Positions 5,000 through 57,739 of a stretch of DNA of 64,000 nt are shown here, in pieces (position 1 is the first letter of the stretch; every line of letters begins with the position of its first letter). A program made the position numbers and the translations under genes. The notes under the pieces were generated by a model. The model had not been told where the DNA came from, did no database searches, and saw only the letters and a list, made by a program, of their open reading frames with translations. The DNA is from Brachycybe producta (taxonomy: Eukaryota > Arthropoda > Diplopoda > Playtdesmida > Andrognathidae): contig JAUPFP010000049.1 of NCBI GenBank assembly GCA_036925085.1, forward strand, positions 434,001 to 498,000, written 5' to 3'.

Positions 5000-5205
5000 A
5001 CAGGCATTTAGAAATCGGGAAGAACTTCAATTGGCTCTGCCCTTTTTATGACGACCGGCAAATTCTAATTGGTTAGTTATGTAGTCTAACGTCGTATGCT
5101 CCGCCCTTTTCAACGTCGAACCACACAACAAACCAATTAGAAGTTGCCAGTCGTCATAAAAAGGGCGGAGCCAACTGAAGTTCTTTCCGATTTCTAAATG
5201 CCTGT
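5000..5205. mobile_element. MITE family B copy 3 (9-bp TSD)
   Basis: This is a 206-bp palindromic element, ACAGGCATTTAGAAATCGGG at the left and AAATGCCTGT at the right. It is flanked by perfect 9-bp duplications CGCTTACTT (4991-4999 and 5206-5214). It matches the 2223 and 28819 copies internally. The exact duplication and close similarity suggest fairly recent mobility. Confidence 0.88.
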
Positions 5206-5689
5206 CGCTTACTTAGACTGGTCAGTAGATTATCATTAAAGTTTAATGAAAGAAAACTATGAAAAACTACTTGTTTAATTATGCTGATCTTTGATGAAAT
5301 AAGTTTGAAATTCCCACAAAAAACAGTCATTTTTTCTTCCCGATTTTTGTATATTTTTCAACCTAAAACCTCTCTCTCTCCCTGGTTTCCGAAATTCTTA
5401 GCCTTGCTAATTACTAATTAGACAGTAAAATACTTAAGAAGGAGGGCGCATTCGCAAAGCTCTTCCCTTTCCTTCGGTTGGCTAATTATCTCCATTGTGT
5501 ATCTTCTTCTTCTCCTCACCACTTAAGTGTGAAGAAATAATAAATACAACACCCTTGATAAATTACGGAAAAAGTAAATAGCTAAAATCTAATCAATGAA
5601 AAACTAAATTTTCTCACGATCTATTTCAATAGAAAAACAAGATGGTTCAAAAGTAACATAAGAATGTGTAGAAACACGTATCTTTGCGG

Positions 5690-6266
5690 GACTGGCTCAC
5701 TACAGCTACTAGGGTCACTACAGCTACCAAAAAGAAAATATAGACCTTTTTTTCATCAAAAGGGTCACTACAGCTACCGAGGGTCACTACAGCTACCAAA
5801 AAATATAGGCCTTTTTATTTATCAATATGTTTAGTTTAGATTACATTCGGTTCAGTTAGATTTCATTATGTTCGGTAAGGTTTGGTTAGGATCGGTTAGG
5901 TTTGGTTAGGATCGGTTAGGTTCATTTAGGTTTGGTTAGGATCGGTTAGGTTTGGTTAGGATCGGTTAGGTTCGGTTAGTATCGGTACTTTTTGGTTAGG
6001 ATCGTTAAGGTTCGGTTAGGTAAGGTTTGGTAAGGTTTTATTAGGTAAGGTTCGGTTATTTTAGGGAGAAAGGGTTATTTTTTTAGCTGTAGTGACGAAA
6101 AAGTGATAAAAAAGGTCTATATTTTGTCCCCCTATTTTTTGGTAGCTGTAGTGACCCTTTTGATGAACAAAAGGTCTATTAATTTTTTTGGTAGCTGTAG
6201 TGACCCAAGTAGCGGTTCTCCCCCTAGTAGCGCTTGTGAGCCTTGGTAGCTGTAGTGACCCCCAAC
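5690..6266. repeat. Foldback element with tandem GGTCACTACAGCTACC arms and a TTAGG-like core
   Basis: The left part (5690-5820) carries several copies of GGTCACTACAGCTACC separated by AAAAAATATAGGCCTTTT-like spacers. The right part (6085-6266) carries the reverse complement GGTAGCTGTAGTGACC several times with the complementary spacers (AAAAGGTCTAT). Between them (about 5870-6060) lies an imperfect array of GGTTAGGATC/GGTTAGGTTT units. No transposase is visible. The same layout (inverted arms built of short repeats around a GGTTAGGTT core) recurs with unrelated arm sequence at 29140-30212. Confidence 0.75.
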
Positions 6267-6484
6267 CATCTTTGCTTATGTATAATTTAGATTTTCTACC
6301 CAAATTCTACGTGATGAAAGCTTTCCTATGATCTTATCTTCTAAAACGATCCATTTTAAATGTTTTTTTGTGTTAACATACACTTTAAATAATAAGTCTT
6401 ATTTAAAATTAACCTTTAAGGTGGATGAATAAATATTTATTATGTGATTTTCAAGAGAAACAGCATTACAAAAAAATCCAAAAT

Positions 6485-25783: not shown

Positions 25784-25932
25784 CGGATATACACACGCAC
25801 ACCTTAAGTACCCCGTTAATAAACAATGAAAAGTTTTTCAAAACAATCAAATGACAATTACACATGGTACAGGGTGACTTCAAAATATTTAAATCACATT
25901 AGAAGAAGAAGAAAACAAAAAGACAAACTGAC

Positions 25933-26339
25933 CTTCCTGAGGATCGGAGGAATGTTTCGAAGTGGTCCTCAATTGTAGATCGTAGCTGAATTCGGCCACG
26001 TTTCTCTTTAAATGGTTCACTAAATTAACGGTTGGTTCGGCCTCAAAGTAGAGCGCCACCTGTCCGTGCTTCGAAATAAAACACCGCGGCAATTGCGCAT
26101 GTCGCCCGTCCGACGGCGAATACAATAAGTGAAGGGTTCGATACCCTTCAAGGTAAATACGCGCCCCCTGAAAGTATTTATTTCCGACTTTAAGGCAACC
26201 CTTAAAGTCCTTGCCGGAAGTGCCGTGTCTAAGTACGATACGCAGCGCCCCTCGCGGATATTTCCATTCGACGCGACCCTGAGAACAGCGCAAGTACACT
26301 GGCTGAACTCCACGATCCTCCTCCTTGTAATGCAAACCA
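25933..26339 (-). CDS. metrnl: Meteorin-like protein, exon 2
   Basis: The largest coding exon (407 bases, residues about 51-187). Acceptor: a pyrimidine-rich run ending TTTCAG (AG at 26341-26340). Donor: GAAG|GTCAGT (GT at 25932-25931). It enters in phase 2 (completing a Ser codon with exon 1) and leaves in phase 1. The protein has the N-terminal meteorin core: PVYLRCSQGRVEWKYPRGAL corresponds to vertebrate VYLRCAAGAVEWMYPTGAL. It is followed by GCLK, GARIYLEG (compare GANIYLE), RCF, QVALYFEAEP (compare GLFVEATP) and FSYDLQ (compare FQYEL). It contributes three of the ten cysteines. The longer open frame to 26446 includes intron sequence upstream of the acceptor and should not be read as an N-terminus. 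Confidence 0.93.
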
Positions 26340-26589
26340 CTGAAATTAATAAAAGAAATTAATAAAAGAAAAATAATTAATACGTTCTCAAAGTTGCCAT
26401 TTGCAAAATATGCTAATGAAAAGAACCAAAAGTCACTAGCTGGCATTTTTACTTATTTTCTTACTACATTTCTTAACTGTAGTTGATTCCAAACAAACCC
26501 CAACTACATTTACAAACGCCTCTTGTACATTGTATACAATATATTAATATGCAATTGTGCAGTGTCCTCGAATGCACCCTTACTTTAGT

Positions 26590-28818: not shown

Positions 28819-29025
28819 ACAGGCAATTAGAAATCGGGACATACAGAAGTTGGCTCCGCCCTTTTTATAACGACCGGCAACTTCTAATTGGTTGGTTATG
28901 TAGTCTGACGTCACATGCTCCGCCCCTTTTCAACGTCGAACCACACAACAAACCAATTAGAAGTTGCCGGTCGTCAGAAAAAGGGCGGAGCCAACTTCTG
29001 CATGTCCCGATTTCTAATTGCCTGT
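28819..29025. mobile_element. MITE family B copy 4 (9-bp TSD)
   Basis: A 207-bp palindrome ACAGGCAATTAGAAATCGGG ... CTAATTGCCTGT flanked by perfect 9-bp repeats TGTTTATGC (28810-28818 and 29026-29034). This is the third copy with an exact 9-bp duplication, which fixes the element boundaries. Confidence 0.88.
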
Positions 29026-29139: not shown

Positions 29140-30212
29140 CAGCGTGTCCCAAAAAAATGTACACGGACTTTGGATGTAATATAATAATTGCCATTTTTAT
29201 TTTCTTAAAATTTAATTTAATAATTTATATAATTAAGATTAAATATAACAGCATTCATTGCATGTTTTATGTTTAAATGTGGCATTATCATCTCAAGTGT
29301 TTAAAATGCCGTCCAAACACATCCATGAAGGCATTGCTGCCATCGGTGAGAAAACTGATCTGATCTGCAAACATCAATTAACATATCTTTTTCTAATTGT
29401 GAGACAAATTCTCTTAGATCTCTCTTCCCGTTTACACAACTATAACAAGACATCGAAGAGAATTTGTCCCTAAAAATACACGAAATAAGGTTAATTTATA
29501 TTTGCAGATCCGTTCCGGTTCAGGATAAAAAGACGAACGAATGAACGGCATGAACATTGGGGTAACTTTAAAACCCGACACAGAATACATATAGAATAAG
29601 ATGAACACTATATCATGGATGAACACACATTTTAAAGGAATGAACAGAGAGAAATAAAAGGATGAACATACTTTAAAGGGATGAACATGGGTTTAAGGGG
29701 ATGAACATGGTTTTATGGGGTTAGGTTATGGTTCGGTTAGGTTAGGTTAGGTTAGGTTCGGTTAGGTTAGGTTCGGTTACCTAACCTAAACTAAAACCAT
29801 GTCCATCCCCTATAAAACCATGTTCATCCCTTTAAAGAATGTTCATCCTTTTATTTCTCTGTTCATCCCTTTAAAATGTGCGTTCATCCATGATATAGTG
29901 TTGATCTTATTCTATATGCATTCTGTGTCGAGTTTTAGAGTTACCCCAATGTTCATCCCGTTCATCCCTTTCATTCGTTCATCTTTTTATCCTGACCCAT
30001 CCGTTCCCTACCGCTGTCAGCAATACCTTGATGCGAATGGACGACATTTTCAACGCTTCACACAATGCCTTATTTAAACACAAAACATGTAATGTTTTTT
30101 TTATATCTAATCTTTATTGTAACCTTTTACTCTTATACAATTAAATGTAAGAAAATAAACATGGCAGTTATTAAACATACAAAGTGCGGTATAATTTTTT
30201 TGGGGGACATTG
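29140..30212. repeat. 1.07-kb foldback element with GGATGAACAT arms and a TTAGG-like core
   Basis: Outer ends CAGCGTGTCCCAAAAAAATG and ATTTTTTTGGGGGACATTG are inverted, and the similarity continues inward (CGGACTTTGGATG with CATACAAAGTGCGG; CATGTTTTATGTTTAAATG with CATTTAAACACAAAACATG-like sequence). The inner arms consist of GGGATGAACATGGTTTTA-type repeats on the left and their inverse on the right. The centre (about 29718-29790) is GGTTAGGTTAGGTTAGG and GGTTCGGTTAGG. The left arm holds an extra block of about 150 bp (about 29361-29510) that itself has inverted ends (GATCTGCAAACATC, TATTTGCAGATC). The outer ends resemble mariner-type TIRs. No transposase was found. Confidence 0.8.
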
Positions 30213-42446: not shown

Positions 42447-43294
42447 GTAAGTTTTTCTTCTTCTTAACTAGCTAATGTATATATGAGAAAGTATAATTAT
42501 TTGTGCTCTAAGCAAATGTTTCTCAATTTGTGACAGAAATGTGATTGTGAAGTAATTGATCATCATCATTAGGGCAAGTGCAAACGATCGTTACAAGCTA
42601 GATTTCTGGTTACTATTAGTTTTCAACTATAGTTCTAGCCTTTAACCTGTGTTTTTGATTGCAAAAAACAATTGTTAAATGATCTAACAGGATTGTTACT
42701 TCATAATTGCCTCTCAGGCCACAGATTGAGAAACATTTGCTTGATATTGCATAAAAATCCGAGCCATTGTTATAATTAATACATTGAACATGTAGAAGTA
42801 ACTAAGGAAGGTACTTGACTGAAATTCGCTGTTGTTTTGGCAGCCAGCTGGCACAAGTCTTTTTGTTTGTTGCAGTCTTGCAAAAAACTCGAAATTACTG
42901 GTTAAATTATTTGAATGAGTCACATGATTATGCTAACACCAGTATGTATAGTTGGTCACTATGGTCAAGTGAGCTGCCACCTCCTACTTTTTTTATTTGT
43001 CTGTCCATTTTCTACAAACATGTGCATAAAAAACCACATTTATAAAAACCAAACTGTAATCTTGGGATGACAAAAAAGACTAAAACATAAAACTCAATTC
43101 TTCAAACACTTTATAAAAAATGAAAAGTTTCAATTTATGCTAAAATTGTCACTGAACACTCTATGCAACCTTGATTTTTATAAAGTTTTTGAACAAATTT
43201 GGCTCAAAAAAGAAAAAAAAAATCAAAATGGATATTAATCCTGTGAAAATATGAATTACATATTGATTTAAATATTTGGCTTTCCAATCAACAG
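42447..43294 (+). other. Mucin-like gene intron 1 (848 bp), with a MITE
   Basis: GTAAGT donor to CAATCAACAG acceptor. It includes a foldback at about 42510-42742, with arms AGCAAATGTTTCTCAATTTG and CAGATTGAGAAACATTTGCT plus further pairing (GTGAAGTAA/TTACTTCA). The rest is AT-rich. Confidence 0.65.
42510..42742. mobile_element. MITE-like foldback in the mucin intron
   Basis: Inverted arms of about 45 bp (AGCAAATGTTTCTCAAT.TGTG at the left, CACAGATTGAGAAACATTTG at the right). The GTTTCTCAA motif is reminiscent of hAT ends. No target duplication is evident. Confidence 0.6.
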
Positions 43295-46200
43295 TTCTCA
43301 AATGGTGCACCAACATTGAAGGAACAGAAAGTTACACTAGATAGCAATGAAGGAAGATCTACTATTAAAGATTTTGTGTCTACTGCTATTACATCATTGA
43401 ATAGCACATTAACAAAGATAAAGCAATTTATAGAATATTGCATCACTCATGGCAAAAGCAGCTCCCCTACCATATCCCCACAGAAACATACAAAAATAAC
43501 ATCCTTGGCTACAGAAACAACATCAGTGTCAACAGAGACAACTGAGACCTTTTCATCAACAGACAAGGATAGATCACCATCAACAGAGGCAACATCATCA
43601 ACAAGTATATCCTCAACTGAAATCTTACAATCAACAAATGAGGAATCATCAGCAACTGAGTCCCCATCCTCCTCGAAAGAGTTATCTTCAACAACTGAGA
43701 CAACATCATTAACCAAAGAAACTTTCTTAAAAACTGAAATGACATCATTGATAACGAAAAGATTATCAACTGAGACAACATCATTGACAACGGAGATATC
43801 ATTGCTAACCACTGAAACATCATTATCTGAGACAACACCATCATCAACAACTGAAACAAAATCAAAGTCAACTAAGACACCATCATCAACAATAGAGACA
43901 ACATCATCAACTGAAATTTCATCATCTTCTCTAGCCAAAACCACATCAGTATCAACAGAGATGCCAGTGTCATCCACAGAAACATCATCAGTAATAACTG
44001 AAACAATAGCAATGTCAACATTGACCCCACAATCAACAACTGAGGCTTTATTGTCAACAACTGAGATGATGATTTCAACTGAGACACCATTGTTTTCCAC
44101 AACTGAAGCATATTCATCATCTTCAACAGCTGAAACCACATCAGTATCAACTGAGACCCCAATGTCATCAATGAAAACATCATCAGCAAGAACTGAAAGA
44201 ACGTCAATGTCAACTGCAAAACCAAAATCAACCATAGAGGCTTTATCATCAACAACTGAGACACAAACAAATACAACAATTGAGGTATCCTCATCAACTG
44301 AATTCCCATCATCTTCCACAACTGAAACCATATCAGAATTCACAGAGACACCAATGTCATCAACAGAAACATCCTCAGCAATAACTGAAACAAAATCAAT
44401 GTCAACTGTGGCCAAACAATCAACAACTAGGGCTTTATCATCAACAACTGAGACTGTAATGTCAACTGAGACACCATCAACACCTGAAGCATCCTCATCA
44501 TCTTCAATGCCTGAAACCATGTCAGCATCAACTGAGACCCCGATGACTTCAACAGTAACATCATCAGTAATAAGTGAAACATCATTGTCAACTGAAACAT
44601 CACAATCAACAACTAAGGCTTTAATGTCAACAACTGAGACCATAATGTCAACTGAGACACTATCATCTTCTAAAACTGAAGCGTCCTCTTCATCTTCAAC
44701 AGCTGAAACAACATTGGCATCAACTGATACCCCAAAATCAACAACTGAGGCTAAATCATCATCAACTGAAACCATAACAACTGAGACACCATCATCCTCT
44801 ACAACTGAAGCATCCTCATCATTTTCAACAGCTGAAACCATGTCAGCATCAACATTAACACCAATGTTATCAACAGGAACAACATCAGGAATAACTCAAA
44901 CAATGTCAATTTCAACTGAAACAATAATGCCAACTGAGACACAAACATCTTCAACAACTGAGGAAGCTTCATCAACTGAATTCTCATTATCTTCAACAGC
45001 TGAAACCAGATCAACATACACTGAAACCCCAATGTCCTCAACAGAAACATTGTCAGCAATAACTGAAACAACAGTGTTAACTGAGACATCACAATCGACA
45101 ACTGAGGCTTTAATGTCAACAACTGAGACCATAATGTCAACTATGACACCGTCTTCTACAACTGAAGCATCCTCTTCGTCTCCAACAGCTGAAACCACAT
45201 TGGCATCAACTGAGACTCCCACATCATTAACAGGAACATCATCAGCAATAACTGAAACAACCTTGATGTCAACTGCCTCCCCACAATCAACAACTAAGGC
45301 TAAATCAACATCAACTGAGACCATAACATCAACTGAGACACCATCGTCTTCTACAACTGAAACATTCTCATCATCTTCAACAGCAGAAACCATGTCAGCA
45401 TCAACATTAACACCAATGTTATCAACAGGAAGATCATCAGTAATAACTTTAACATCATTGACAACTGAGACATCACAATCGACAACTGAGGTTTTAACGT
45501 CAGCAACTGAGACCATAATGTCAACTGACACACTAATATCTTCTACAACTGAAGCATCCTCTTCATCTCCAACAGCTGAAACCATGTCAGCATCAACTGA
45601 AACCCAAACGTTATCAACAAAAACATCATCAGCAATAACTGAAATAACATCAGTGTCAACTCAAACACCACAATTGACAACTGAGGCTATCTTGTCAACA
45701 ACTGAAACTGTATTGTCAACTGAGACACCATTGTTTTCTACAACTGAAGTAGATTCATCTTCAACAACTGAAACCATGTCAGCATCAACTGAGACCCCAA
45801 TGTCTTCAACAGGAACATCATCAGTAATAACTGAAACATCATTGTCAACTGAGACATCACAATCAACAACTGAGACTTTAATGTCAACTGAGACACCATC
45901 ATCTTCTACAACTGAAGCATCCTCTTCATTTTCAACAGCTGAAACCATGCCAGCCTCAACTTCGATTGCAACGTCAACAACAGGAACATCATCAGTAATA
46001 ACTGAAACATCAGTGTCAACTCAAACACCACAATTAACAACTGAGGCTTTAACATCAACAACTGAGAAGATAATGTCAACTGAGACACCATCATATTTTA
46101 CAACTGAAACATCGTCTTCATCTTCAACAGCTGAAACCACATTGGCATCAACTGAGACCCAAACAGCATCAACAGGAACACCATCAGCAATAACTGAAAC

Positions 46201-49200
46201 AACCTTGACATCATCAACTGAGACACCATTGTCTTTTACAACTGAAACATCCTCTTTATCTTCAACAGCTGAAACCACATTGGCATCAACCCCAACATCA
46301 GCAACAGGAAAATCATCATCAACTGATACAACCTTGATGTCAACTGCCTCCCAACAATCAACAACTGAGGCTAAATCATCATCAACTGAAACATCCACTG
46401 AAACCCCAATGTCCTCAACAGAAACATTGTCAGCAATAACTGAAACAACAGTGTCAACTGAGACATCACAATCGACAACTGAGGCTTTAATGTCAACATC
46501 TGAGACCATAATGTCAACTATGACACCGTCTTCTACAACTGAAGCATCCTCTTCGTCTTCAACAGCTGAAACAACATTGGCATCAACTGATACCCCAAAA
46601 TCAACAACTGAGGCTAAATCATCATCAACTGAAACCATAACAACTGAGACACCATCATCCTCTACAACTGAAGCATCCTCATCATTTTCAACAGCTGAAA
46701 CCATGTCAGCATCAACATTAACACCAATGTCATCAACAGGAACAACATCAGGAATAACTCAAACAATGTCAATTTCAACTGAAACAGTAATGCCAACTGA
46801 GACACAAACATCTTCAACAACTGAGGAAGCTTCATCAACTGAATTCTCATTATCTTCAACAGCTGAAACCAGATCAACATACACTGAAACCCCAATGTCC
46901 TCAACAGAAACATTGTCAGCAATAACAGAAACAACAGTGTCAACTGAGACATCTCAATTGACAAATGCGTCTTTAATGTCAACAACTGAGACCATCATGT
47001 CAACTATGACACTGTCTTCTACAACTGAAGCATCCTCTTCGTCTTCAACAGCTGAAACCACATTGGCATCAACTGAGACTCCAACATCATTAACAGGAAC
47101 ATCATCAGCAATAACTGAAACAACCTTGATGTCAACTGCCTCCCCACAATCAACAACTAAGGCTAAATCAACATCAACTGAGACCATAACATCAACTGAG
47201 ACACCATCGTCTTCTACAACTGAAGCATTCTCATCATCTTCAACAGCAGAAACCATGTCAGCATCAACATTAACACCAATGTTATCCACAGGAAGATCAT
47301 CAGTAATAACTTTAACATCATTGTCAACTGAGACATCACAATCGACAACTGAGGTTTTAACGTCAGCAACTGAGACCATAATGTCAACTGACACACTAAT
47401 ATCTTCTACAACTGAAGCATCCTCTTCATCTCCAACAGCTGAAACCATGTCAGCATCAACTGAAACCCAAACGTTATCAACAAAAACATCATCAGCAATA
47501 ACTGAAATAACATCAGTGTCAACTCAAACACCACAATTGACAACTGAGGCTATCTTGTCAACAACTGAAACTGTATTGTCAACTGAGACACCATTGTTTT
47601 CTACAACTGAAGTAGATTCATCTTCAAAAACTGAAACCATGTCAGCATCAACTGAGACCCCAATGTCTTCAACAGGAACATCATCAGTAATAACTGAAAC
47701 ATCATTGTCAACTGAGACATCACAATCAACAACTGAGACTTTAATGTCAACAACTGAGACCATAATGTCAACTGAGACACCATCATCTTCTACAACTGAA
47801 GCATCCTCTTCATTTTCAACAGCTGAAACCATGCCAGCCTCAACTTCGATTGCAACGTCAACAACAGGAACATCATCAGTAATAACTGAAACATCAGTGT
47901 CAACTCAAACACCACAATTAACAACTGAGGCTTTAACATCAACAACTGAGAAGATAATGTCAACTGAGACACCATCATATTTTACAACTGAAACATCGTC
48001 TTCATCTTCAACAGCTGAAACCACATTGGCATCAACTGAGACCCAAACAGCATCAACAGGAACACCATCAGCAATAACTGAAACAACCTTGACAACTGAA
48101 TCCATGTCATCATCAACTGAGACACCATTGTCTTTTACAACTGAAACATCCTCTTTATCTTCAACAGCTGAAACCACATTGGCATCAACCCCAACATCAG
48201 CAACAGGAAAATCATCATCAACTGATACAACCTTGATGTCAACTGCCTCCCAACAATCAACAACTGAGGCTAAATCATCATCAACTGAAACATCCACTGA
48301 AACCCCAATGTCCTCAACAGAAACATTGTCAGCAATAACTGAAACAACAGTGTCAACTGAGACATCACAATCGACAACTGAGGCTTTAACGTCAACATCT
48401 GAGACCATAATTTCAACTGAGACACCGTCTTCTACAACTGAAGCATCCTCTTCGTCTTCAACAGCTGAAACCACATTGGCATCAACTGATACCCCAACAC
48501 TATTAAAAGGAACATCATCAGCAATAATTGAAACAACCTTGATGTCAACTGCCTCCCCACAATCAACAACTGAGGCTAAATCATCATCAACTGAAACATC
48601 CACTGAAACCCCAATGTCTTCAACAGAAATATTGTCAGCAATAACTGAAACAACAGTGTCAACTGAGACATCACAATCGACAACTGAGGCTTTAAAGTCA
48701 ACAACTGAGACCATAATGTCGACTGAGACACTGTCTTCCACAACTGAAGCATCCTCTTCCTCTTCAACAGCTGAAACCACATTGGCATCAACTGAGACAC
48801 CATCATCGTCTACAAGTGATGCAACCTCATCTTCTTCAACAGCTGAAACGATATCAGCATCAACTGAGACACCATCATCGTCTACAAGTGATGCAACCTC
48901 ATCTTCTTCAACAGCTGAAACGATATCAGCATCAACTTCGACTGCAATGTCATCAACAGGAACATCATCAGTAATAACTACAACATCACTGTCATCTGAG
49001 ACATCACAATCGACAACTGAGGCTTTAACATCAACAACTGAGAAAATGATATCAACTGAGACATCATCGTCTTTTAGAACTGAAACATCCTCTATATCTT
49101 CAACAGCTGAAACCACATTGGCATCAACTGAGACCCCAATATCATCAACAGGAACATCATCAGCAATATCTGTAACAACCTTGATGTCAACTGCCTCCCC

Positions 49201-52200
49201 ACAATCAACAACTGAGGCTAAATCATCATCAACTGAAACATCCAGTGAAACCCCAAAGTCCTCAACAAAAACATCATCAACAATAACTGAAACAACATCA
49301 GTGTCAACTCAAACACCACAACTGACAACTGAGGCTTTCTTGTCAACAACTAAAACCGTAATGTCAACTGAGACACCATTGTCTTCTACAACTAAAGTAA
49401 CTTCATCTTCAACAACTGAAACTATGTCAGCATCAACTGAGACCCCGATGTCTTCAACAGGAACATCATCAGTAATAACTGATACATCATTGTCAACTGA
49501 GACATCACAATCAACAACTGAGGCTTTAATGTCAACAGCTGAGAAACTGTCTTCCACAACTGAAGCATCCTCTTCATCTTCAACAACTGAAACGACATCG
49601 GCATCAACTGAGACACCATTATCTTCTACAAGTGAAGCATCCTCATCATCTTCAACAGCTGAAACGATGTCAGCATCAACTTCGACTTCTATGTCAGCAC
49701 AAACTGAGACCCCGATGATTTCAACAGGAACATCATCAGTAATAACTGAAACATCATTGTCAACTGAAACATCACAATCAACAACTGATGCTTTAATGTC
49801 AACAACTGAGAAAATAATGTCAACTGAGACACCATCATCTTTTACAACTGAAGCATCCTCTTCATCTTCAACAGCTGAAACCATGTCAGCATCAACTGAA
49901 ACCCCAATGTCATCAACAAAAACATCATCAGCAATAACTGAAACAACATCAGTGTCAACTCAAACACCACAACTGACAACTGAGGCTTTCTTGTCAACAA
50001 CTGAAACCGTAATGTCAACTGAGACACCATTGTCTTCTACAACTGAAGGAGCTTCATCTTCAAAAACTGAAACTATGTCAGCATCAACTGAGACCCCGAT
50101 GTTTTCAACAGGAACATCATCATTAATAACGGAAACATCATTGTCAACTGAGACAGCACAATCAACAACTGAGGCTTTAATGTCAACAACTGAGGCTTTA
50201 ATGTCAACAACTGAGGCTTTAATGTCAACAACTGAGACTATTATGTCAACTGAGACTATAATGTCAACTGAGACACTATCGTCCACAACTGAAGCATCCT
50301 CTTCATCTTCAACAGCTGAAACCACATTGGCATCAACTGAGACACCATCATTTTCTAGAAATGAAGCATCCTCATCATCTTCAACAGCTGAAACCATGTC
50401 AGCATCAACTTCGACTTCAATGTCATCAACAGGAACATCATCAGTAATAACTGAAACATCACTGTTCTCTGAGACATCACAATCGACAACTGAAGCTTTA
50501 ATGTCAACAACTGAGAAAACAATGTCAACTGAGACACCATCGTCTTTTACAACTGAAACATCCTCTTCATCTTCAATAGCTGAAACCACATTGGCATCAA
50601 ATGAGACCCCAACATCGTCAACAGGAACATCATCAGCAATAACTGAAACAACCTTGATGTCAACTGCCTCCCCACATTCAACAACTGAGGCTAAATCATC
50701 ATCAACTGAAACAACCTTGATGTCAATTGCCTCCCAACAATTAACAACTGAGGCTAAATCATCATCAACTGAAACATCCACTGAAACCACAATGTCCTCA
50801 ACAGAAACATTATCAGCAATAACTGAAACAACAGTGTCAACTGAGACATCACAATCAACAACTGAGACTTTATCATCAACAACTGAGACTTTATCATCAA
50901 CAACTGAGACCATAATGTCAACTGACACACTATCATCTTCTACAACTGAAGCATCCTCTTCATCTTCAACAGCTGAAACCATGTCAGCATCAACATTAAC
51001 ACCAATGTCATCAACAAAAACATCATCAGCAATAACTGAAACAACATCAGTGTCAACTCAAACACCACAATTGACAACTGAGGCTATCTTGTCAACAACT
51101 GAAACCATAATGTCAACTGAGACTCTATTGTCTTCTACAACTGAAGTAGCTTCATCTTCTACAGCTGAAACCATGTCAGCATCAACTGAGACCCCAATGC
51201 CTGCATCAGTAACATTATCAGTAATAACTGAAACATCTTTGTCAACTGAGACATCACAATCAACAACTGAGGCTTTAATGTCAACAACTAAGACCATAAT
51301 GTCAACTGAGACACCGTCTTCTACAACTGAAGCATCTTCTTCATTTTCGACAGCTGAAACCACATTGGCATCAACTGAGACCCCAACATCATTAACAGGA
51401 ACATCATCAGCAATAACTGAAACAACCTTGATGTCAACTTCCTCCCCACATTCAACAACTGAGGCTAAATCATCATCAACTGAGACCATAACATCAACTA
51501 AGACCATATCAACTGAGACACCATCATCTTTTACAACTGAAGCATTCTCAGTATCTTCAACAGCAGAAACCACGTCAGCATCAACATTAACACCAATGTC
51601 ATCAACAGGAACATTATCAGAAATAACTAAAACATCATTGTCAACTGAGACATTACCATGGACAACTGAGGCTTTAACGTCAACAACTGTGACCATAATG
51701 TCAACTGAGACACAGTCTTCTACAACTGAAGCATCCTCTTCATCTTCAACAGCTAAAACCACATTGGCATCAACTGAGACCCCAATGTCATTAACAGGAA
51801 CATCATCAGCAATTACTGAAACAACCTTGATGTCAACTGCCTCCCCACAATCAACAACTGAGGCTATATCATCATCAACTGAGACCATAACATCAACTGA
51901 GACACCATCATCTTCTACAACTGAAGCATCCTCATCACCTTCAACAGATGAAACCAACTCAGCATCAAGATTAACACTAATGTCATCAACAGGAACAACA
52001 TCAGGAATAACTGAAACAACATTAATATCAACTGCCACCCCACAATCAACCACTGAGGCTTTATCATCAACAACTGAGACCATAATGTCAACTGAGACAC
52101 TGTCATCTTCTACAACTGACGCATCCTCTTCATCATCAACAGCTGAAACCATGTCAGCATCAACTGAGACCCCGATGTCTTTAACAGTAACATCATCAGT

Positions 52201-55200
52201 AATAACTGAAACATCATTGGCAACTGAGACATCACAATCGACAACTAAGTCTTTCTTATCAACAACTGAAACCGTAATGTCAACTGAGACACTGTCTTCT
52301 ACAACTGAAGCATCCTCTTCATCTTCAACAGCTGAAACCACATTGGCATCAACTGAGACACCATCATCTTCTACAAGTGAAGCATCCTCATCATCTTCAA
52401 CAGCTGAAACCATGTCAGCCTCCACTTTGACTGCAATGTCATCAACAGGAACAGCATCAGTAATAACTGAAACATCATTGTCATCTGAGACATCACAATC
52501 GACAACTGAGGCTTTAACGTCAACAACTGAGACCATAATGTCAACTGAGACACCACTGTCTTTTACAACTGAAGCATCCTCTTCATCTTCAATAGCTGAA
52601 ACCACATTGGCATCAACTGAAACCCCAACATCATCAACAGGAACATCATCAGCAATAACTGAAACAACCTTGATATCAACTGCCTCCCCACAATCAACAA
52701 CTGAGGCTAAATCATCATCAACTGAAACATCCACTGAAACCCCAATGTCATCAACAGAAACATTGTCAGCAATAACTGAAACAACAGTGTCAACAGAGAC
52801 ATCACAATCAAAAACTGAGACCTCTTCATCTTCAACAACTGAGACCTCTTCATCTTCAACAGCTGAAACAATGTTAGCCTCAACTTTGACACCAATGTCA
52901 TCAACAGGAACAACATCAGGAATAACTCAAACAATAATAATTTCAACTGCCTCTCCACAATCAACGACTGAGATGTTATCATCAGCTTCATCAACTGAAC
53001 TCTCATCTTCAACAGCTGAAACAACATCAACAGGCACTAAAACCCCAATGTCATCAACAGAAACAGTGTCAGCAATAACTGAAACAACAATGTCAACTGA
53101 GACATCACAATTGACAACTGTGTCTTCATCATTAACAACTGAGACCATAATGTCAACCGAGACACCATCATCTTCTACACGTGAAGCATCCTCATCTTCA
53201 ACCACTGAAACCACACCAGCATCAACTGAGACCCCATTGTCATCAACAGAAACATTCTCAGTGACAACTGAAACAACATCATTGTCAAGTGAGACCCCAC
53301 AATCTACAACTGAGGCTTCATCGTCAACAACTGAAACAAAATCATTGTCAACTGAAACCCAAGAATCAACAACTGAGGCTAAATCGTCAACAACTGTGTC
53401 TAAATCGTCAACAACTGAAACAATAATGTCAACTGAGACACCAATGTCTTCTACAACTAAAGAATCCTCATCTTCAACAACTGAAACCACATCAGCATCA
53501 ACTGAGACTGCATTGCCATCAACAGGAACATCATCTGCAATAACAGACACAACATCATTATCAACTGAGAAGCCACAATCAACTACTGAGGCTTTATCAT
53601 CAACAACTGAAACTATAATGTCAACTCAGACAAGATCCACATCTACAACAGACACATCCTCTTCACTTTCAACAGCTGAAACTACATCTGCATCAACTGA
53701 GACCCCAATGTCATCAACAGGAAAATCATCAGCAATAACTGAAACAACCCTGATATCAACTGCCTCCCCACAATCAACAACTGAGGCTAAATCATCATCA
53801 ACTGAAACATCCACTGAAACCCCAATGTCATCAACAGAAACATTGTCAGCAATAACTGAAACAACAGTGTCAACTGAGACATCACAATCAAAAACTGAGA
53901 CATCTTCATCTTCAACAACTGAGACCTCTTCATCTTCAACAACTGAGACCTCTTCATCTTCAACAGCTGAAACAATGTTAGCCTCAACTTTGACACCAAT
54001 GTCATCAACAGGAACAACATCAGGAATAACTCAAACAATAATAATTTCAACTGCCTCTCCACAATCAACAACTGAGATGTTATCATCAGCTTCATCAACT
54101 GAACTCTCATCTTCAACAGCTGAAACAACATCAACAGGCACTAAAACCCCAATGTCATCAACAGAAACAGTGTCAGCAATAACTGAAACAACAGTGTCAA
54201 CTGAGACATCACAATTGACAACTGTGTCTTCATCATTAACAACTGAGACCATAATGTCAACCGAGACACCATCATCTTCTACACGTGAAGCATCCTCATC
54301 TTCAACCACTGAAACCACACCAGCATCAACTGAGACCGCATTGTCATCAACAGAAACATTCTCAGTGACAACTGAAACAACATCATTGTCAAGTGAGACC
54401 CCACAATCTACAACTGAGGCTTCATCGTCAACAACTGAAACAAAATCATTGTCAACTGAAACCCAAGAATCAACAACTGAGGCTAAATCGTCAACAACTG
54501 TGTCTAAATCGTCAACAACTGAAACAATAATGTCAACTGAGACACCAATGTCTTCTACAACTAAAGAATCCTCATCTTCAACAACTGAAACCACATCAGC
54601 ATCAACTGAGACTGCATTGCCATCAACAGGAACATCATCTGCAATAACAGACACAACATCATTATCAACTGAGAAGCCACAATCAACTACTGAGGCTTTA
54701 TCATCAGCAACTGAAACTATAATGTCAACTCAGAGAAGATCCACATCTACAACAGACACATCCTCTTCACTTTCAACAGCTGAAACTACATCTGCATTAA
54801 CTGAGACCCCAATGTCATCAACAGGAACATCATCAGCAATAACTGAAACAACCTTGATATCAACTGCCTCCCCACAATCAACAACTGAGGCTAAATCATC
54901 ATCAACTGAAACATCCACTGAAACCCCAATGTCATCAACAGAAACATTGTCAGCAATAACTGAAACAACAGTGTCAACAGAGACATCACAATCAAAAACT
55001 GAGACCTCTTCATCTTCAACAACTGAGACCTCTTCATCTTCAACAGCTGAAACAATGTTAGCCTCAACTTTGACACCAATGTCATCAACAGGAACAACAT
55101 CAGGAATAACTCAAACAATAATAATTTCAACTGCCTCTCCACAATCAACAACTGAGATGTTATCATCAGCTTCATCAACTGAACTCTCATCTTCAACAGC

Positions 55201-57739
55201 TGAAACAACATCAACAGGCACTAAAACCCCAATGTCATCAACAGAAACAGTGTCAGCAATAACTGAAACAACAGTGTCAACTGAGACATCGCAATTGACA
55301 ACTGTGTCTTCATCATTAACAACTGAGACCATAATGTCAACCGAGACACCATCATCTTCTACACGTGAAGCATCCTCATCTTCAACCACTGAAACCACAC
55401 CAGCATCAACTGAGACCCCATTGTCATCAACAGAAACATTCTCAGTGACAACTGAAACAACATCATTGTCAAGTGAGACCCCACAATCTACAACTGAGGC
55501 TTCATCGTCAACAACTGAAACAAAATCATTGTCAACTGAAACCCAAGAATCAACAACTGAGGATAAATCGTCAACAACTGTGTCTAAATCGTCAACAACT
55601 GAAACAATAATGTCAAATGAGACACCAATGTCTTCTACAACTAAAGAATCCTCATCTTCAACAACTGAAACCACATCAGCATCAACTGAGACTGCATTGC
55701 CATCAACAGGAACATCATCTGCAATAACAGAAACAACATCATTATCAACTGAGAAGCCACAATCAACTACTGAGGCTTTATCATCAACAACTGAAACTAT
55801 AATGTCAACTCAGAGAAGATCCACATCTACAACAGACACATCCTCTTCACTTTCAACAGCTGAAACTACATCTGCATTAACTGAGACCCCAATGTCATCA
55901 ACAGGAACATCATCAGCAATAACTGAAACAACCTTGATATCAACTGCCTCCCCACAATCAACAACTGAGGCTAAATCATCATCAACTGAAACATCCACTG
56001 AAACCCCAATGTCATCAACAGAAACATTGTCAGCAATAACTGAAACAACAGTGTCAACAGAGACATCACAATCAAAAACTGAGACCTCTTCATCTTCAAC
56101 AACTGAGACCTCTTCATCTTCAACAACTGAGACCTCTTCATCTTCAACAGCTGAAACAATGTTAGCCTCAACTTTGACACCAATGTCATCAACAGGAACA
56201 ACATCAGGAATAACTCAAACAATAATAATTTCAACTGCCTCTCCACAATCAACAACTGAGATGTTATCATCAGCTTCATCAACTGAACTCTCATCTTCAA
56301 CAGCTGAAACAACATCAACAGGCACTAAAACCCCAATGTCATCAACAGAAACAGTGTCAGCAATAACTGAAACAACAGTGTCAACTGAGACATCACAATT
56401 GACAACTGTGTCTTCATCATTAACAACTGAGACCATAATGTCAACCGAGACACCATCATCTTCTACACATGAAGCATCCTCATCTTCAACCACTGAAACC
56501 ACACCAGCATCAACTGAGACCCCATTGTCATCAACAGAAACATTCTCAGTGACAACTGAAACAACATCATTGTCAAGTGAGACCCCACAATCTACAACTG
56601 AGGCTTCATCGTCAACAACTGAAACAAAATCATTGTCAACTGAAACCCAAGAATCAACAACTGAGGATAAATCGTCAACAACTGTGTCTAAATCGTCAAC
56701 AACTGAAACAATAATGTCAACTGAGACACCAATGTCTTCTACAACTAAAGAATCCTCATCTTCAACAACTGAAACCACATCAGCATCAACTGAGACTGCA
56801 TTGCCATCAACAGGAACATCATCTGCAATAACAGACACAACATCATTATCAACTGAGAAGCCACAATCAACTACTGAGGCTTTATCATCAACAACTGAAA
56901 CTATAATGTCAACTCAGACAAGATCCACATCTACAACAGACACATCCTCTTCACTTTCAACAGCTGAAACTACATCTGCATCAACTGAGACCCCAATGTC
57001 ATCAACAGGAAAATCATCAGCAATAACTGAAACAACCCTGATATCAACTGCCTCCCCACAATCAACAACTGAGGCTAAATCATCATCAACTGAAACATCC
57101 ACTGAAACCCCAATGTCATCAACAGAAACATTGTCAGCAATAACTGAAACAACAGTGTCAACTGAGACATCACAATCAAAAACTGAGACCTCTTCATCTT
57201 CAACAACTGAGACCTCTTCATCTTCAACAACTGAGACCTCTTCATCTTCAACAGCTGAAACAATGTTAGCCTCAACTGAGACCCCAATGTCATCAACAGG
57301 AACATCATCAGTGATAACTGAATCAACATCATTGTCAAGTGAGACCCCACACTCTACAACTGAGGCTTTATCATCAACTACTGAAACATTGTCAACTGAA
57401 ACCCCACAATCAACTGAGACTGCATTGTCATCAACAGAAACATCATCTGCAGTAACAGACACAACATCATTATCAACTGAGATGCCACAATCAACAATTG
57501 AGGCATTTTTGTCATCAACTGCAACATCATTGTCAACTGAAACAACATCATTTTCAACTGAAACACCACAATCGACAACTGAGGCTAAGTCATCAACTGA
57601 GACCATAATGTCAACTGAGACAACAATGCCTTCTACAACTAAAGCATCCTCATCTTCAACAACTGTAAACACATCAGCAACAACTGAGACTGCATTGTCA
57701 CCAGCAGGAACATCATCAGCAATAACTGAAACAACATGA
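43295..57739 (+). CDS. Giant Ser/Thr/Glu-rich mucin-like protein, main exon
   Basis: One uninterrupted frame of 14.4 kb (4,814 codons from the acceptor, about 4,829 residues with exon 1) ending at TGA 57737-57739. The first ~65 residues are non-repetitive (KEQKVTLDSNEGRSTIKDF, TKIKQFIEYC with the only obvious cysteine). After that come irregular repeats of about 20-30 residues of the type TETIMSTETPSSSTTEASSS, ETMSASTETPMSSTGTSS and AITETT. Ser and Thr dominate, with Glu and Pro, an ideal substrate for mucin-type O-glycosylation; Glu and sialic acids would make it strongly acidic. There is no transmembrane segment and no Cys-rich, VWD or chitin-binding domain. With the signal peptide it is most likely a secreted or matrix mucin. 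Serine is mostly TCA and threonine ACA/ACT. The TGA looks like a lesion rather than the natural end (see the next entries). No specific family name can be given. Confidence 0.8.
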   Translation, partial: FSNGAPTLKEQKVTLDSNEGRSTIKDFVSTAITSLNSTLTKIKQFIEYCITHGKSSSPTISPQKHTKITSLATETTSVSTETTETFSSTDKDRSPSTEATSSTSISSTEILQSTNEESSATESPSSSKELSSTTETTSLTKETFLKTEMTSLITKRLSTETTSLTTEISLLTTETSLSETTPSSTTETKSKSTKTPSSTIETTSSTEISSSSLAKTTSVSTEMPVSSTETSSVITETIAMSTLTPQSTTEALLSTTEMMISTETPLFSTTEAYSSSSTAETTSVSTETPMSSMKTSSARTERTSMSTAKPKSTIEALSSTTETQTNTTIEVSSSTEFPSSSTTETISEFTETPMSSTETSSAITETKSMSTVAKQSTTRALSSTTETVMSTETPSTPEASSSSSMPETMSASTETPMTSTVTSSVISETSLSTETSQSTTKALMSTTETIMSTETLSSSKTEASSSSSTAETTLASTDTPKSTTEAKSSSTETITTETPSSSTTEASSSFSTAETMSASTLTPMLSTGTTSGITQTMSISTETIMPTETQTSSTTEEASSTEFSLSSTAETRSTYTETPMSSTETLSAITETTVLTETSQSTTEALMSTTETIMSTMTPSSTTEASSSSPTAETTLASTETPTSLTGTSSAITETTLMSTASPQSTTKAKSTSTETITSTETPSSSTTETFSSSSTAETMSASTLTPMLSTGRSSVITLTSLTTETSQSTTEVLTSATETIMSTDTLISSTTEASSSSPTAETMSASTETQTLSTKTSSAITEITSVSTQTPQLTTEAILSTTETVLSTETPLFSTTEVDSSSTTETMSASTETPMSSTGTSSVITETSLSTETSQSTTETLMSTETPSSSTTEASSSFSTAETMPASTSIATSTTGTSSVITETSVSTQTPQLTTEALTSTTEKIMSTETPSYFTTETSSSSSTAETTLASTETQTASTGTPSAITETTLTSSTETPLSFTTETSSLSSTAETTLASTPTSATGKSSSTDTTLMSTASQQSTTEAKSSSTETSTETPMSSTETLSAITETTVSTETSQSTTEALMSTSETIMSTMTPSSTTEASSSSSTAETTLASTDTPKSTTEAKSSSTETITTETPSSSTTEASSSFSTAETMSASTLTPMSSTGTTSGITQTMSISTETVMPTETQTSSTTEEASSTEFSLSSTAETRSTYTETPMSSTETLSAITETTVSTETSQLTNASLMSTTETIMSTMTLSSTTEASSSSSTAETTLASTETPTSLTGTSSAITETTLMSTASPQSTTKAKSTSTETITSTETPSSSTTEAFSSSSTAETMSASTLTPMLSTGRSSVITLTSLSTETSQSTTEVLTSATETIMSTDTLISSTTEASSSSPTAETMSASTETQTLSTKTSSAITEITSVSTQTPQLTTEAILSTTETVLSTETPLFSTTEVDSSSKTETMSASTETPMSSTGTSSVITETSLSTETSQSTTETLMSTTETIMSTETPSSSTTEASSSFSTAETMPASTSIATSTTGTSSVITETSVSTQTPQLTTEALTSTTEKIMSTETPSYFTTETSSSSSTAETTLASTETQTASTGTPSAITETTLTTESMSSSTETPLSFTTETSSLSSTAETTLASTPTSATGKSSSTDTTLMSTASQQSTTEAKSSSTETSTETPMSSTETLSAITETTVSTETSQSTTEALTSTSETIISTETPSSTTEASSSSSTAETTLASTDTPTLLKGTSSAIIETTLMSTASPQSTTEAKSSSTETSTETPMSSTEILSAITETTVSTETSQSTTEALKSTTETIMSTETLSSTTEASSSSSTAETTLASTETPSSSTSDATSSSSTAETISASTETPSSSTSDATSSSSTAETISASTSTAMSSTGTSSVITTTSLSSETSQSTTEALTSTTEKMISTETSSSFRTETSSISSTAETTLASTETPISSTGTSSAISVTTLMSTASPQSTTEAKSSSTETSSETPKSSTKTSSTITETTSVSTQTPQLTTEAFLSTTKTVMSTETPLSSTTKVTSSSTTETMSASTETPMSSTGTSSVITDTSLSTETSQSTTEALMSTAEKLSSTTEASSSSSTTETTSASTETPLSSTSEASSSSSTAETMSASTSTSMSAQTETPMISTGTSSVITETSLSTETSQSTTDALMSTTEKIMSTETPSSFTTEASSSSSTAETMSASTETPMSSTKTSSAITETTSVSTQTPQLTTEAFLSTTETVMSTETPLSSTTEGASSSKTETMSASTETPMFSTGTSSLITETSLSTETAQSTTEALMSTTEALMSTTEALMSTTETIMSTETIMSTETLSSTTEASSSSSTAETTLASTETPSFSRNEASSSSSTAETMSASTSTSMSSTGTSSVITETSLFSETSQSTTEALMSTTEKTMSTETPSSFTTETSSSSSIAETTLASNETPTSSTGTSSAITETTLMSTASPHSTTEAKSSSTETTLMSIASQQLTTEAKSSSTETSTETTMSSTETLSAITETTVSTETSQSTTETLSSTTETLSSTTETIMSTDTLSSSTTEASSSSSTAETMSASTLTPMSSTKTSSAITETTSVSTQTPQLTTEAILSTTETIMSTETLLSSTTEVASSSTAETMSASTETPMPASVTLSVITETSLSTETSQSTTEALMSTTKTIMSTETPSSTTEASSSFSTAETTLASTETPTSLTGTSSAITETTLMSTSSPHSTTEAKSSSTETITSTKTISTETPSSFTTEAFSVSSTAETTSASTLTPMSSTGTLSEITKTSLSTETLPWTTEALTSTTVTIMSTETQSSTTEASSSSSTAKTTLASTETPMSLTGTSSAITETTLMSTASPQSTTEAISSSTETITSTETPSSSTTEASSSPSTDETNSASRLTLMSSTGTTSGITETTLISTATPQSTTEALSSTTETIMSTETLSSSTTDASSSSSTAETMSASTETPMSLTVTSSVITETSLATETSQSTTKSFLSTTETVMSTETLSSTTEASSSSSTAETTLASTETPSSSTSEASSSSSTAETMSASTLTAMSSTGTASVITETSLSSETSQSTTEALTSTTETIMSTETPLSFTTEASSSSSIAETTLASTETPTSSTGTSSAITETTLISTASPQSTTEAKSSSTETSTETPMSSTETLSAITETTVSTETSQSKTETSSSSTTETSSSSTAETMLASTLTPMSSTGTTSGITQTIIISTASPQSTTEMLSSASSTELSSSTAETTSTGTKTPMSSTETVSAITETTMSTETSQLTTVSSSLTTETIMSTETPSSSTREASSSSTTETTPASTETPLSSTETFSVTTETTSLSSETPQSTTEASSSTTETKSLSTETQESTTEAKSSTTVSKSSTTETIMSTETPMSSTTKESSSSTTETTSASTETALPSTGTSSAITDTTSLSTEKPQSTTEALSSTTETIMSTQTRSTSTTDTSSSLSTAETTSASTETPMSSTGKSSAITETTLISTASPQSTTEAKSSSTETSTETPMSSTETLSAITETTVSTETSQSKTETSSSSTTETSSSSTTETSSSSTAETMLASTLTPMSSTGTTSGITQTIIISTASPQSTTEMLSSASSTELSSSTAETTSTGTKTPMSSTETVSAITETTVSTETSQLTTVSSSLTTETIMSTETPSSSTREASSSSTTETTPASTETALSSTETFSVTTETTSLSSETPQSTTEASSSTTETKSLSTETQESTTEAKSSTTVSKSSTTETIMSTETPMSSTTKESSSSTTETTSASTETALPSTGTSSAITDTTSLSTEKPQSTTEALSSATETIMSTQRRSTSTTDTSSSLSTAETTSALTETPMSSTGTSSAITETTLISTASPQSTTEAKSSSTETSTETPMSSTETLSAITETTVSTETSQSKTETSSSSTTETSSSSTAETMLASTLTPMSSTGTTSGITQTIIISTASPQSTTEMLSSASSTELSSSTAETTSTGTKTPMSSTETVSAITETTVSTETSQLTTVSSSLTTETIMSTETPSSSTREASSSSTTETTPASTETPLSSTETFSVTTETTSLSSETPQSTTEASSSTTETKSLSTETQESTTEDKSSTTVSKSSTTETIMSNETPMSSTTKESSSSTTETTSASTETALPSTGTSSAITETTSLSTEKPQSTTEALSSTTETIMSTQRRSTSTTDTSSSLSTAETTSALTETPMSSTGTSSAITETTLISTASPQSTTEAKSSSTETSTETPMSSTETLSAITETTVSTETSQSKTETSSSSTTETSSSSTTETSSSSTAETMLASTLTPMSSTGTTSGITQTIIISTASPQSTTEMLSSASSTELSSSTAETTSTGTKTPMSSTETVSAITETTVSTETSQLTTVSSSLTTETIMSTETPSSSTHEASSSSTTETTPASTETPLSSTETFSVTTETTSLSSETPQSTTEASSSTTETKSLSTETQESTTEDKSSTTVSKSSTTETIMSTETPMSSTTKESSSSTTETTSASTETALPSTGTSSAITDTTSLSTEKPQSTTEALSSTTETIMSTQTRSTSTTDTSSSLSTAETTSASTETPMSSTGKSSAITETTLISTASPQSTTEAKSSSTETSTETPMSSTETLSAITETTVSTETSQSKTETSSSSTTETSSSSTTETSSSSTAETMLASTETPMSSTGTSSVITESTSLSSETPHSTTEALSSTTETLSTETPQSTETALSSTETSSAVTDTTSLSTEMPQSTIEAFLSSTATSLSTETTSFSTETPQSTTEAKSSTETIMSTETTMPSTTKASSSSTTVNTSATTETALSPAGTSSAITETT
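44700..48470 (+). repeat. Mucin higher-order repeat, two ~1.87-kb copies
   Basis: 44700-46562 and 46563-48470 are direct copies, at first offset by 1,863 bases. The offset grows to 1,884 and then about 1,899 through codon-multiple insertions of 21 and 15 bases in the second copy (for example TTETIMS added near 47750). All indels seen keep the frame, consistent with selection on the protein at the time of duplication. Confidence 0.75.
52681..57048 (+). repeat. Mucin higher-order repeat, four units alternating 1,080 and 1,104 bp
   Basis: Units start at 52681, 53761, 54865 and 55945 (same phase at TGCCTCCCCACAATCAAC), with lengths 1,080, 1,104, 1,080 and 1,104, then a partial fifth from 57049 to about 57280. 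The 24-base difference is one extra copy of the TETSSSST-coding segment (two versus three copies). Sequence between units is nearly identical. Variants also alternate: GKSSA at the end of units 1 and 4, GTSSA at the end of units 2 and 3. Confidence 0.85.

Follow-up and report, generated by a model that had tools for sequence, protein, structure and literature searches.

A family of foldback elements with a TTAGG-like core in the genome of the millipede Brachycybe producta

Positions 29140-30212 of the sequence examined here form a palindrome with telomere-like repeats at its centre, which raises the question of what kind of element this is and where its centre came from. The window, i.e. the whole 64,000-nucleotide stretch of contig JAUPFP010000049.1 that was analysed, belongs to a genome of 295.3 Mb, assembled in 442 contigs. 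An initial annotation, made from the letters alone, had drawn the palindrome as one 1.07-kb foldback. It had noted an unrelated foldback with the same type of core nearby and had proposed that the two possibly belong to an undescribed class of elements.

The nested palindrome in the window

The 1.07-kb stretch is roughly palindromic over its whole length, and the GGTTAGG/GGTTCGG centre and the GGATGAACAT-type arm repeats are present as described. While the palindrome stands, the single element does not. An exact 9-bp duplication bounds an inner 482 bp, and thus the feature is two nested elements, a foldback that we call family A inside an older dispersed element whose ends are the outer ends of the palindrome. 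The features are as follows.

29140..29516, plus strand: older dispersed element, left part (mariner-like ends; host site of family A), copies elsewhere mostly 68-77% identical
29508..29516, plus strand: left copy of the 9-bp target site duplication ATCCGTTCC, 9/9 identical
29517..29998, strand not assigned: family A foldback, 482 bp, a near-perfect palindrome with termini GGTTCAGG...CCTGACCC (most copies GGGTCAGG)
29517..29715, plus strand: family A left arm, which contains subrepeats of the GGATGAACAT type (~20 bp)
29719..29791, plus strand: TTAGG-like core of GGTTA/GGTTC units in forward orientation that converge at GGTTACC and CCTAACC
29795..29998, minus strand: family A right arm, an inverted copy of the left arm
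29999..30007, plus strand: right copy of ATCCGTTCC, 9/9 identical
30008..30212, plus strand: older dispersed element, right part, assigned as an inverted copy of the left part (repeats I7, I8)

The right part was assigned to the older element because of its inverted similarity to 29140-29516. The left part matches a separate dispersed repeat, mostly at 68-77% identity with short pieces up to 85%. By eye, its ends resemble those of mariner elements. Four copies of the outer element, on C97, C23, C4, and C92, were measured from paired opposite-strand matches and span 536-588 bp. The outer element in the window is of similar length, at 582 bp once family A and one copy of the duplication are subtracted. 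A single element whose ends are mariner-like and whose inner arm is composite, as first drawn, would explain why the entire stretch is roughly palindromic, but this drawing can hardly be maintained: the nested 9-bp duplication rules it out, family A is found elsewhere with other flanks, and the four measured outer copies are too short to contain it. An assembly artefact was also ruled out, since the flanking sequence differs between copies and they have duplications of their own.

As single-stranded DNA, 29517-29998 has a predicted folding energy of -189 kcal/mol, compared with -45 +/- 4.5 kcal/mol for 100 shuffled versions (z -32). No match was obtained for the window in Rfam or in a tRNA scan, or for two window frames in Pfam. 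In the window, GGTTAGGTTAGG (at most one mismatch) occurs 19 times, where 0.19 are expected, and every occurrence is within one of two foldbacks, the family A copy and the second foldback, which we call family B. In a census of window positions 1-43000, we identified 14 inverted-repeat units, and TTAGG-like units were present only in those of A and B. Therefore, the core is a property of these two families and not of every hairpin.

Other features of the window were also recorded. An open frame of 4830 codons with Ser/Thr-rich tandem repeats, mucin-like, is at 43247-57739, and there is a strong GC skew over 44-58 kb. On the minus strand, positions 25889-26452 contain a Meteorin-like coding stretch (PDB chain 7tl6_A, E 2.9e-6), which had no Pfam match at E 0.1.

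Families A and B across the genome

Family A is a repeated mobile family. With the whole element as query there were at least 229 genome matches, many copies matching on both strands, and the 23-base terminus GGGTCAGGATAAAAAGATGAACG (at most two mismatches) had 498 genome matches while its reversed control had none. Copies are at different sites and have matching ends, and 22 of them were examined. Among the 21 with both ends, the target site duplication is an exact 9 bp in nine, matches at 8/9 positions in three and at 7/9 in four, is 8 bp long in three, and is lacking in two. Thus 19/21 have a duplication of 8 or 9 bp in which seven or more positions match, which fits the range of the Mutator-like (MULE) superfamily, 8-11 bp and typically 9. 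The characters of foldback elements are all found in family A: long inverted repeats make up the bulk of the element, the arms contain short tandem subrepeats, and dispersed copies are flanked by target site duplications.

The core of family A is a run of GGTTA, GGTTC, and GGTTT units facing an inverted run. A TTAGG-like core was found in 22/22 copies by eye and in 21/22 by script; the script took flanking sequence of the remaining copy (L012) as its loop, and the core of this copy was confirmed by eye. The centre is GGTTACC or GGTAACC (GGTWACC) in 19/22 loops as parsed, or 20 counting L012. Summed over the loops, the units were TTA 88, TTC 37, TTT 12, and two others. One A element of 6.66 kb (L078) has matching ends and greatly expanded arm repeats, with no exact GGTTAGG or CCTAACC in it. 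This structure indicates that the arms can become minisatellites and that the core can be absent, and thus the core is not required for membership of the family. The same element was considered as an autonomous copy and rejected, because its long open frames contain only repeats and it has no clear target duplication. At C3:4203729-4207338, several kb of A-arm repeat matches are beside an A terminus, which is probably another expanded copy judging from these matches. Among the 100 of 498 termini listed, no transposase gene was found within an element bearing A's ends, and none of the exact A termini listed on C1, C2, C5, and C13 was within 100 kb of a MULE match.

The second foldback is in the window at the following positions.

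5680..5687, plus strand: left copy of the family B 8-bp duplication ATCTTTGC (L028)
5688..6267, plus strand: family B foldback, 580 bp, with ends GGGACTGG...CCCCAACC and a TTAGG-like directional array in its loop
6268..6275, plus strand: right copy of ATCTTTGC (L028)

The ends of family B differ from each other (GGGACTGG vs GGTTGGGG), and TCACTACAGCTACC is the basis of its arms. A and B are separate families that have a common core type. The 21-base B terminus (at most two mismatches) had 584 genome matches, with none for the reversed control, and the best 29 copies apart from the window's own are 90-96% identical. Fifty loci were examined, two of which (L066, L075) are family A; some B copies are nested in other B copies, and two loci (L029, L030) have the same near flanks and are probably one event. 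Among the 45 loci with both ends, 33 have an 8-bp duplication, 5 a 9-bp duplication, and 7 none, a count that favours 8 because the best 8-bp match was chosen among several possible ends. Since the usual duplication is 8 bp, a MULE is not singled out as the superfamily of B. No transposase carrier with B's own ends was found; a B terminus ~2.3 kb from a MULE match on C1 was considered and rejected, as it faces away and is read as a mere neighbour. The loop of B is a directional array, with no inverted unit in the 30 loops parsed. Its units are TTA 284, TTC 134, TAA 113, ATC 109, TTT 90, and TTG 3. At C1:17313294-17314250, a B loop between two B arms has expanded and now comprises about 1 kb of GGTTAGGTTC-type units; such a loop might seed a satellite.

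Target duplications, which the initial annotation had suggested looking for, were found around A (the 9-bp ATCCGTTCC), around B (the 8-bp ATCTTTGC), and around other copies genome-wide. The annotation had also argued that two unrelated foldbacks with one core type are beyond coincidence, unless such arrays were common genome-wide. The 17-mer GGTTAGGTTCGGTTAGG, which favours cores with GGTTC, has 550 exact matches in 295 Mb and its reversed control has none, and thus for this 17-mer the arrays are not so common. This result does not extend to pure TTAGG arrays, a 32-mer of which has 7640 matches. The first 100 of the 550 matches, taken in contig order and not at random, form 25 clusters on contig C1 and the start of C2. 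All 25 clusters adjoin an A arm (2) or a B arm (23), in agreement with that argument, while reversed sequences gave no arm matches. Arms flank the array on both sides in 18/25 clusters and on one side only in 7/25.

Family C and the MULE loci

There are 21 genome matches to the MULE domain (PF10551), and one group of them extends the common core type beyond A and B, as a third, MULE-encoding family (family C) has it too. Family C is represented by a 4173-bp copy at C13:545813-549985 and a second copy at C28:2720786-2724979. It has ~75-bp terminal repeats and, by eye, 9-bp duplications (8/9 on C13 and 9/9 on C28), and its 796-aa open frame contains a MULE domain with a score of 50.1 bits (cut-off 27.6). 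A transposase domain between terminal inverted repeats with a 9-bp duplication is the structure of a MULE. The segment between the frame and the right end contains 21-bp minisatellite units and, interspersed with them, three core blocks, GGTTAGGTTAGG...TAGTTACATAACCAAACCAAACC. The inner part of this core (at most one mismatch) has 42 genome matches, 6 of which are in the C13 and C28 copies. Three of the other 36 places were examined and have similar 21-bp repeats and cores; by eye, their ends have a common ACTAGCG and an inner GCATGC/CATTGCCATCTTATC stretch, and one of them (L104) has both ends, with an 8-bp duplication around it. For the C13/C28 family, the terminus had 52 matches, many of them paired ~275 or 325-330 bp apart.

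Family C resembles Rehavkus, a group of MULE relatives from arthropods and annelids, in which the duplications are 9 bp long and a minisatellite immediately precedes the 3' terminal repeat (PMC6446971). The minisatellite of family C is likewise before the 3' terminal repeat. Rehavkus transposases have a PHD finger (PMC6446971), whereas the single open frame of the C13 copy had no PHD match at E 0.1.

Seven MULE loci or groups were examined in part, mostly with 1-2 kb of flank per side: C13/C28, C32, C43, C89, two on C1, and the C5/C2 palindromes. In the sequence covered, the core was seen only at C13/C28. The loci on C13, C28, C32, C43, and C89 and the two on C1 were rejected as the parent of A, since the flanks examined contain no A or B terminus (at most two mismatches). 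On C5, C2, and C38 the MULE matches come in opposite-strand pairs, which points to giant palindromes whose copies are arranged head to head. In the C5/C2 palindromes a 1088-aa MULE frame is followed by tandem-repeat arms. One CCTAACC heptamer is present in them, and neither an array nor a motif of A or B was found in the half of C5 and the part of C2 examined. The 1088-aa protein from C5 has PHD and SWIM matches below the curated cut-off. The sequences at C5:5404200-5410200 (L081) and C2:4236900-4240400 (L082) are 99.7% identical over 3.5 kb.

A hairpin element of ~207 bp is present at window positions 28819-29025 and 5000-5205 and at the C32 locus (L094:640-846), with exact 9-bp duplications by eye (TGTTTATGC, CGCTTACTT, and GTTATAAAA). 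The hairpin repeats at 28819-29025 were considered as the ends of the C32 MULE and rejected. Each side of the C32 frame is a complete hairpin copy, and the two thus look like independent insertions and not like the ends of the gene. The right-hand copy has its own 9-bp duplication.

Origin and meaning of the telomere-like core

Long internally repetitive inverted ends, as in family A, are also found in Drosophila Foldback (FB). Galileo has such ends as well but belongs to the P superfamily. To our knowledge, no TTAGG-like loop has been described in FB or Galileo. The architecture is the same in Tm1, a Mutator/Foldback group of root-knot nematodes. The inverted ends of Tm1 are composite and contain short tandem repeats, its arms vary in length, and its duplications are mostly 9 bp long (8-10); it has short non-autonomous members, and one member encodes a MULE transposase (PMC3169594). 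Families A and B are similar to Tm1 in their composite inverted ends, internal tandem repeats, and duplications, and the asymmetric terminal motifs of Tm1 recall family B. The Tm1 subrepeats are 13-15 bp long, in contrast to the ~20 bp of A, and the Tm1 middle contains a histone hairpin motif or the transposase; the word 'telomer' does not occur in its text (PMC3169594). Tetris of Drosophila virilis is, like A, a foldback that is non-autonomous and contains tandem repeats; its duplications are 8-10 bp long, and it was placed in the Mutator superfamily from this length (PMC4079207). Most foldbacks are assigned to Mutator according to the same paper. Tetris differs in its TIR-220 subrepeats and variable middle domain, and the sole mention of 'telomer' in the paper concerns the location of a satellite (PMC4079207). 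A 2026 survey of arthropod MULEs contains none of 'foldback', 'telomer', 'minisatellite', or 'tandem repeat' (PMC13359780). As far as these sources go, arms with short tandem repeats and 8-10-bp duplications are thus an already described foldback/MULE architecture, and calling the elements an undescribed class was an overstatement. In open-access titles and the starts of abstracts, no description of a telomere-like core in foldbacks, MITEs, or terminal inverted repeats was found.

We conclude, with a probability of about 0.8, that family A is a non-autonomous foldback DNA transposon, probably of MULE type, and that its telomere-like core was inherited, exchanged, or captured. The long inverted ends of A would be recognised by a transposase that acts in trans and most probably belongs to the MULE superfamily; this enzyme would excise the element and reinsert it through a 9-bp staggered cut. 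We infer that a MULE transposase moves A itself from the 9-bp duplication and from the assignment of most foldbacks to Mutator. The window copy would have landed within the older dispersed element, the arms would lengthen and shorten through their ~20-bp tandem units, and the loop would be formed by an old array of TTAGG-like units that stems from telomere-type repeats.

The telomere motif of this genome is the arthropod-type (TTAGG)n. A 32-mer of this motif has 7640 genome matches (reversed control 3), and those listed form one long, perfect array that begins at C1:5001, behind a stretch of N, whereas (TTAGGG)5 has no genome match (its reversed control has 7). The main core unit of A and B, GGTTA, is the same motif, and a direct capture of telomeric or interstitial telomeric DNA, more than once, would account for this if telomerase or break repair had added TTAGG at transposon ends or breaks. 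Such repeated capture seems unlikely, as the cores are rich in GGTTC and GGTTT, with GGATC and GGTAA in B, and are not pure TTAGG, and the GGTWACC centre of most A loops points to one old origin in A.

Another reading, which we consider rather improbable, is that A and B are foldbacks that gained their TTAGG-like loops independently of each other. Microsatellites would have grown from short G-rich seeds, helped by slippage and gene conversion in hairpin loops, and the likeness to telomeres would be convergence. The degenerate core units with family-specific counts in A and B would fit such growth, and arrays do expand locally, as at the roughly 1-kb B array on C1. The order of core units was compared with permuted versions, using one hand-chosen copy per family. 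The order in the B core was no closer than permuted to that of A (468/2000 reach the score) or of C (1858/2000), and thus a common origin of B's array lacks support in this test; the likeness of the B core could be convergent. But one A core and one C-type core (L105) have a common order that only 6/2000 permuted versions reach, the main unit is the host's own telomere unit and recurs in three families, and the GTTTAGTTTAGGTTA boundary (at most one mismatch) is present in 19/22 A copies and 29/30 B copies. From these likenesses we infer a common origin or capture of the core in preference to independent microsatellite growth. Most simply, the core is an old telomere-like array that was inherited or exchanged between elements.

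Selection might have acted on the core as well. Unrelated families would then have acquired the same core for a cis effect, for example the binding of a host telomere-repeat protein or of the transposase, or the stabilisation of a G-rich loop. The core would be a portable, selected cis module of foldback/MULE transposons, which by spreading it would have produced most interstitial telomere-like DNA in this genome, a reading that we regard as doubtful as a whole.

Chromosome fusions, break repair, and telomerase errors are the explanations commonly given for interstitial telomere-like arrays. The telomere-like arrays examined here are the loops of mobile foldback elements, and therefore transposition is a source of such arrays. 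Arrays that have been transposed could seed satellites, and they could mislead the mapping of telomeres by probes or in assemblies. A core type common to families with unrelated ends may be an inherited passenger, an exchanged module, or a functional cis site.
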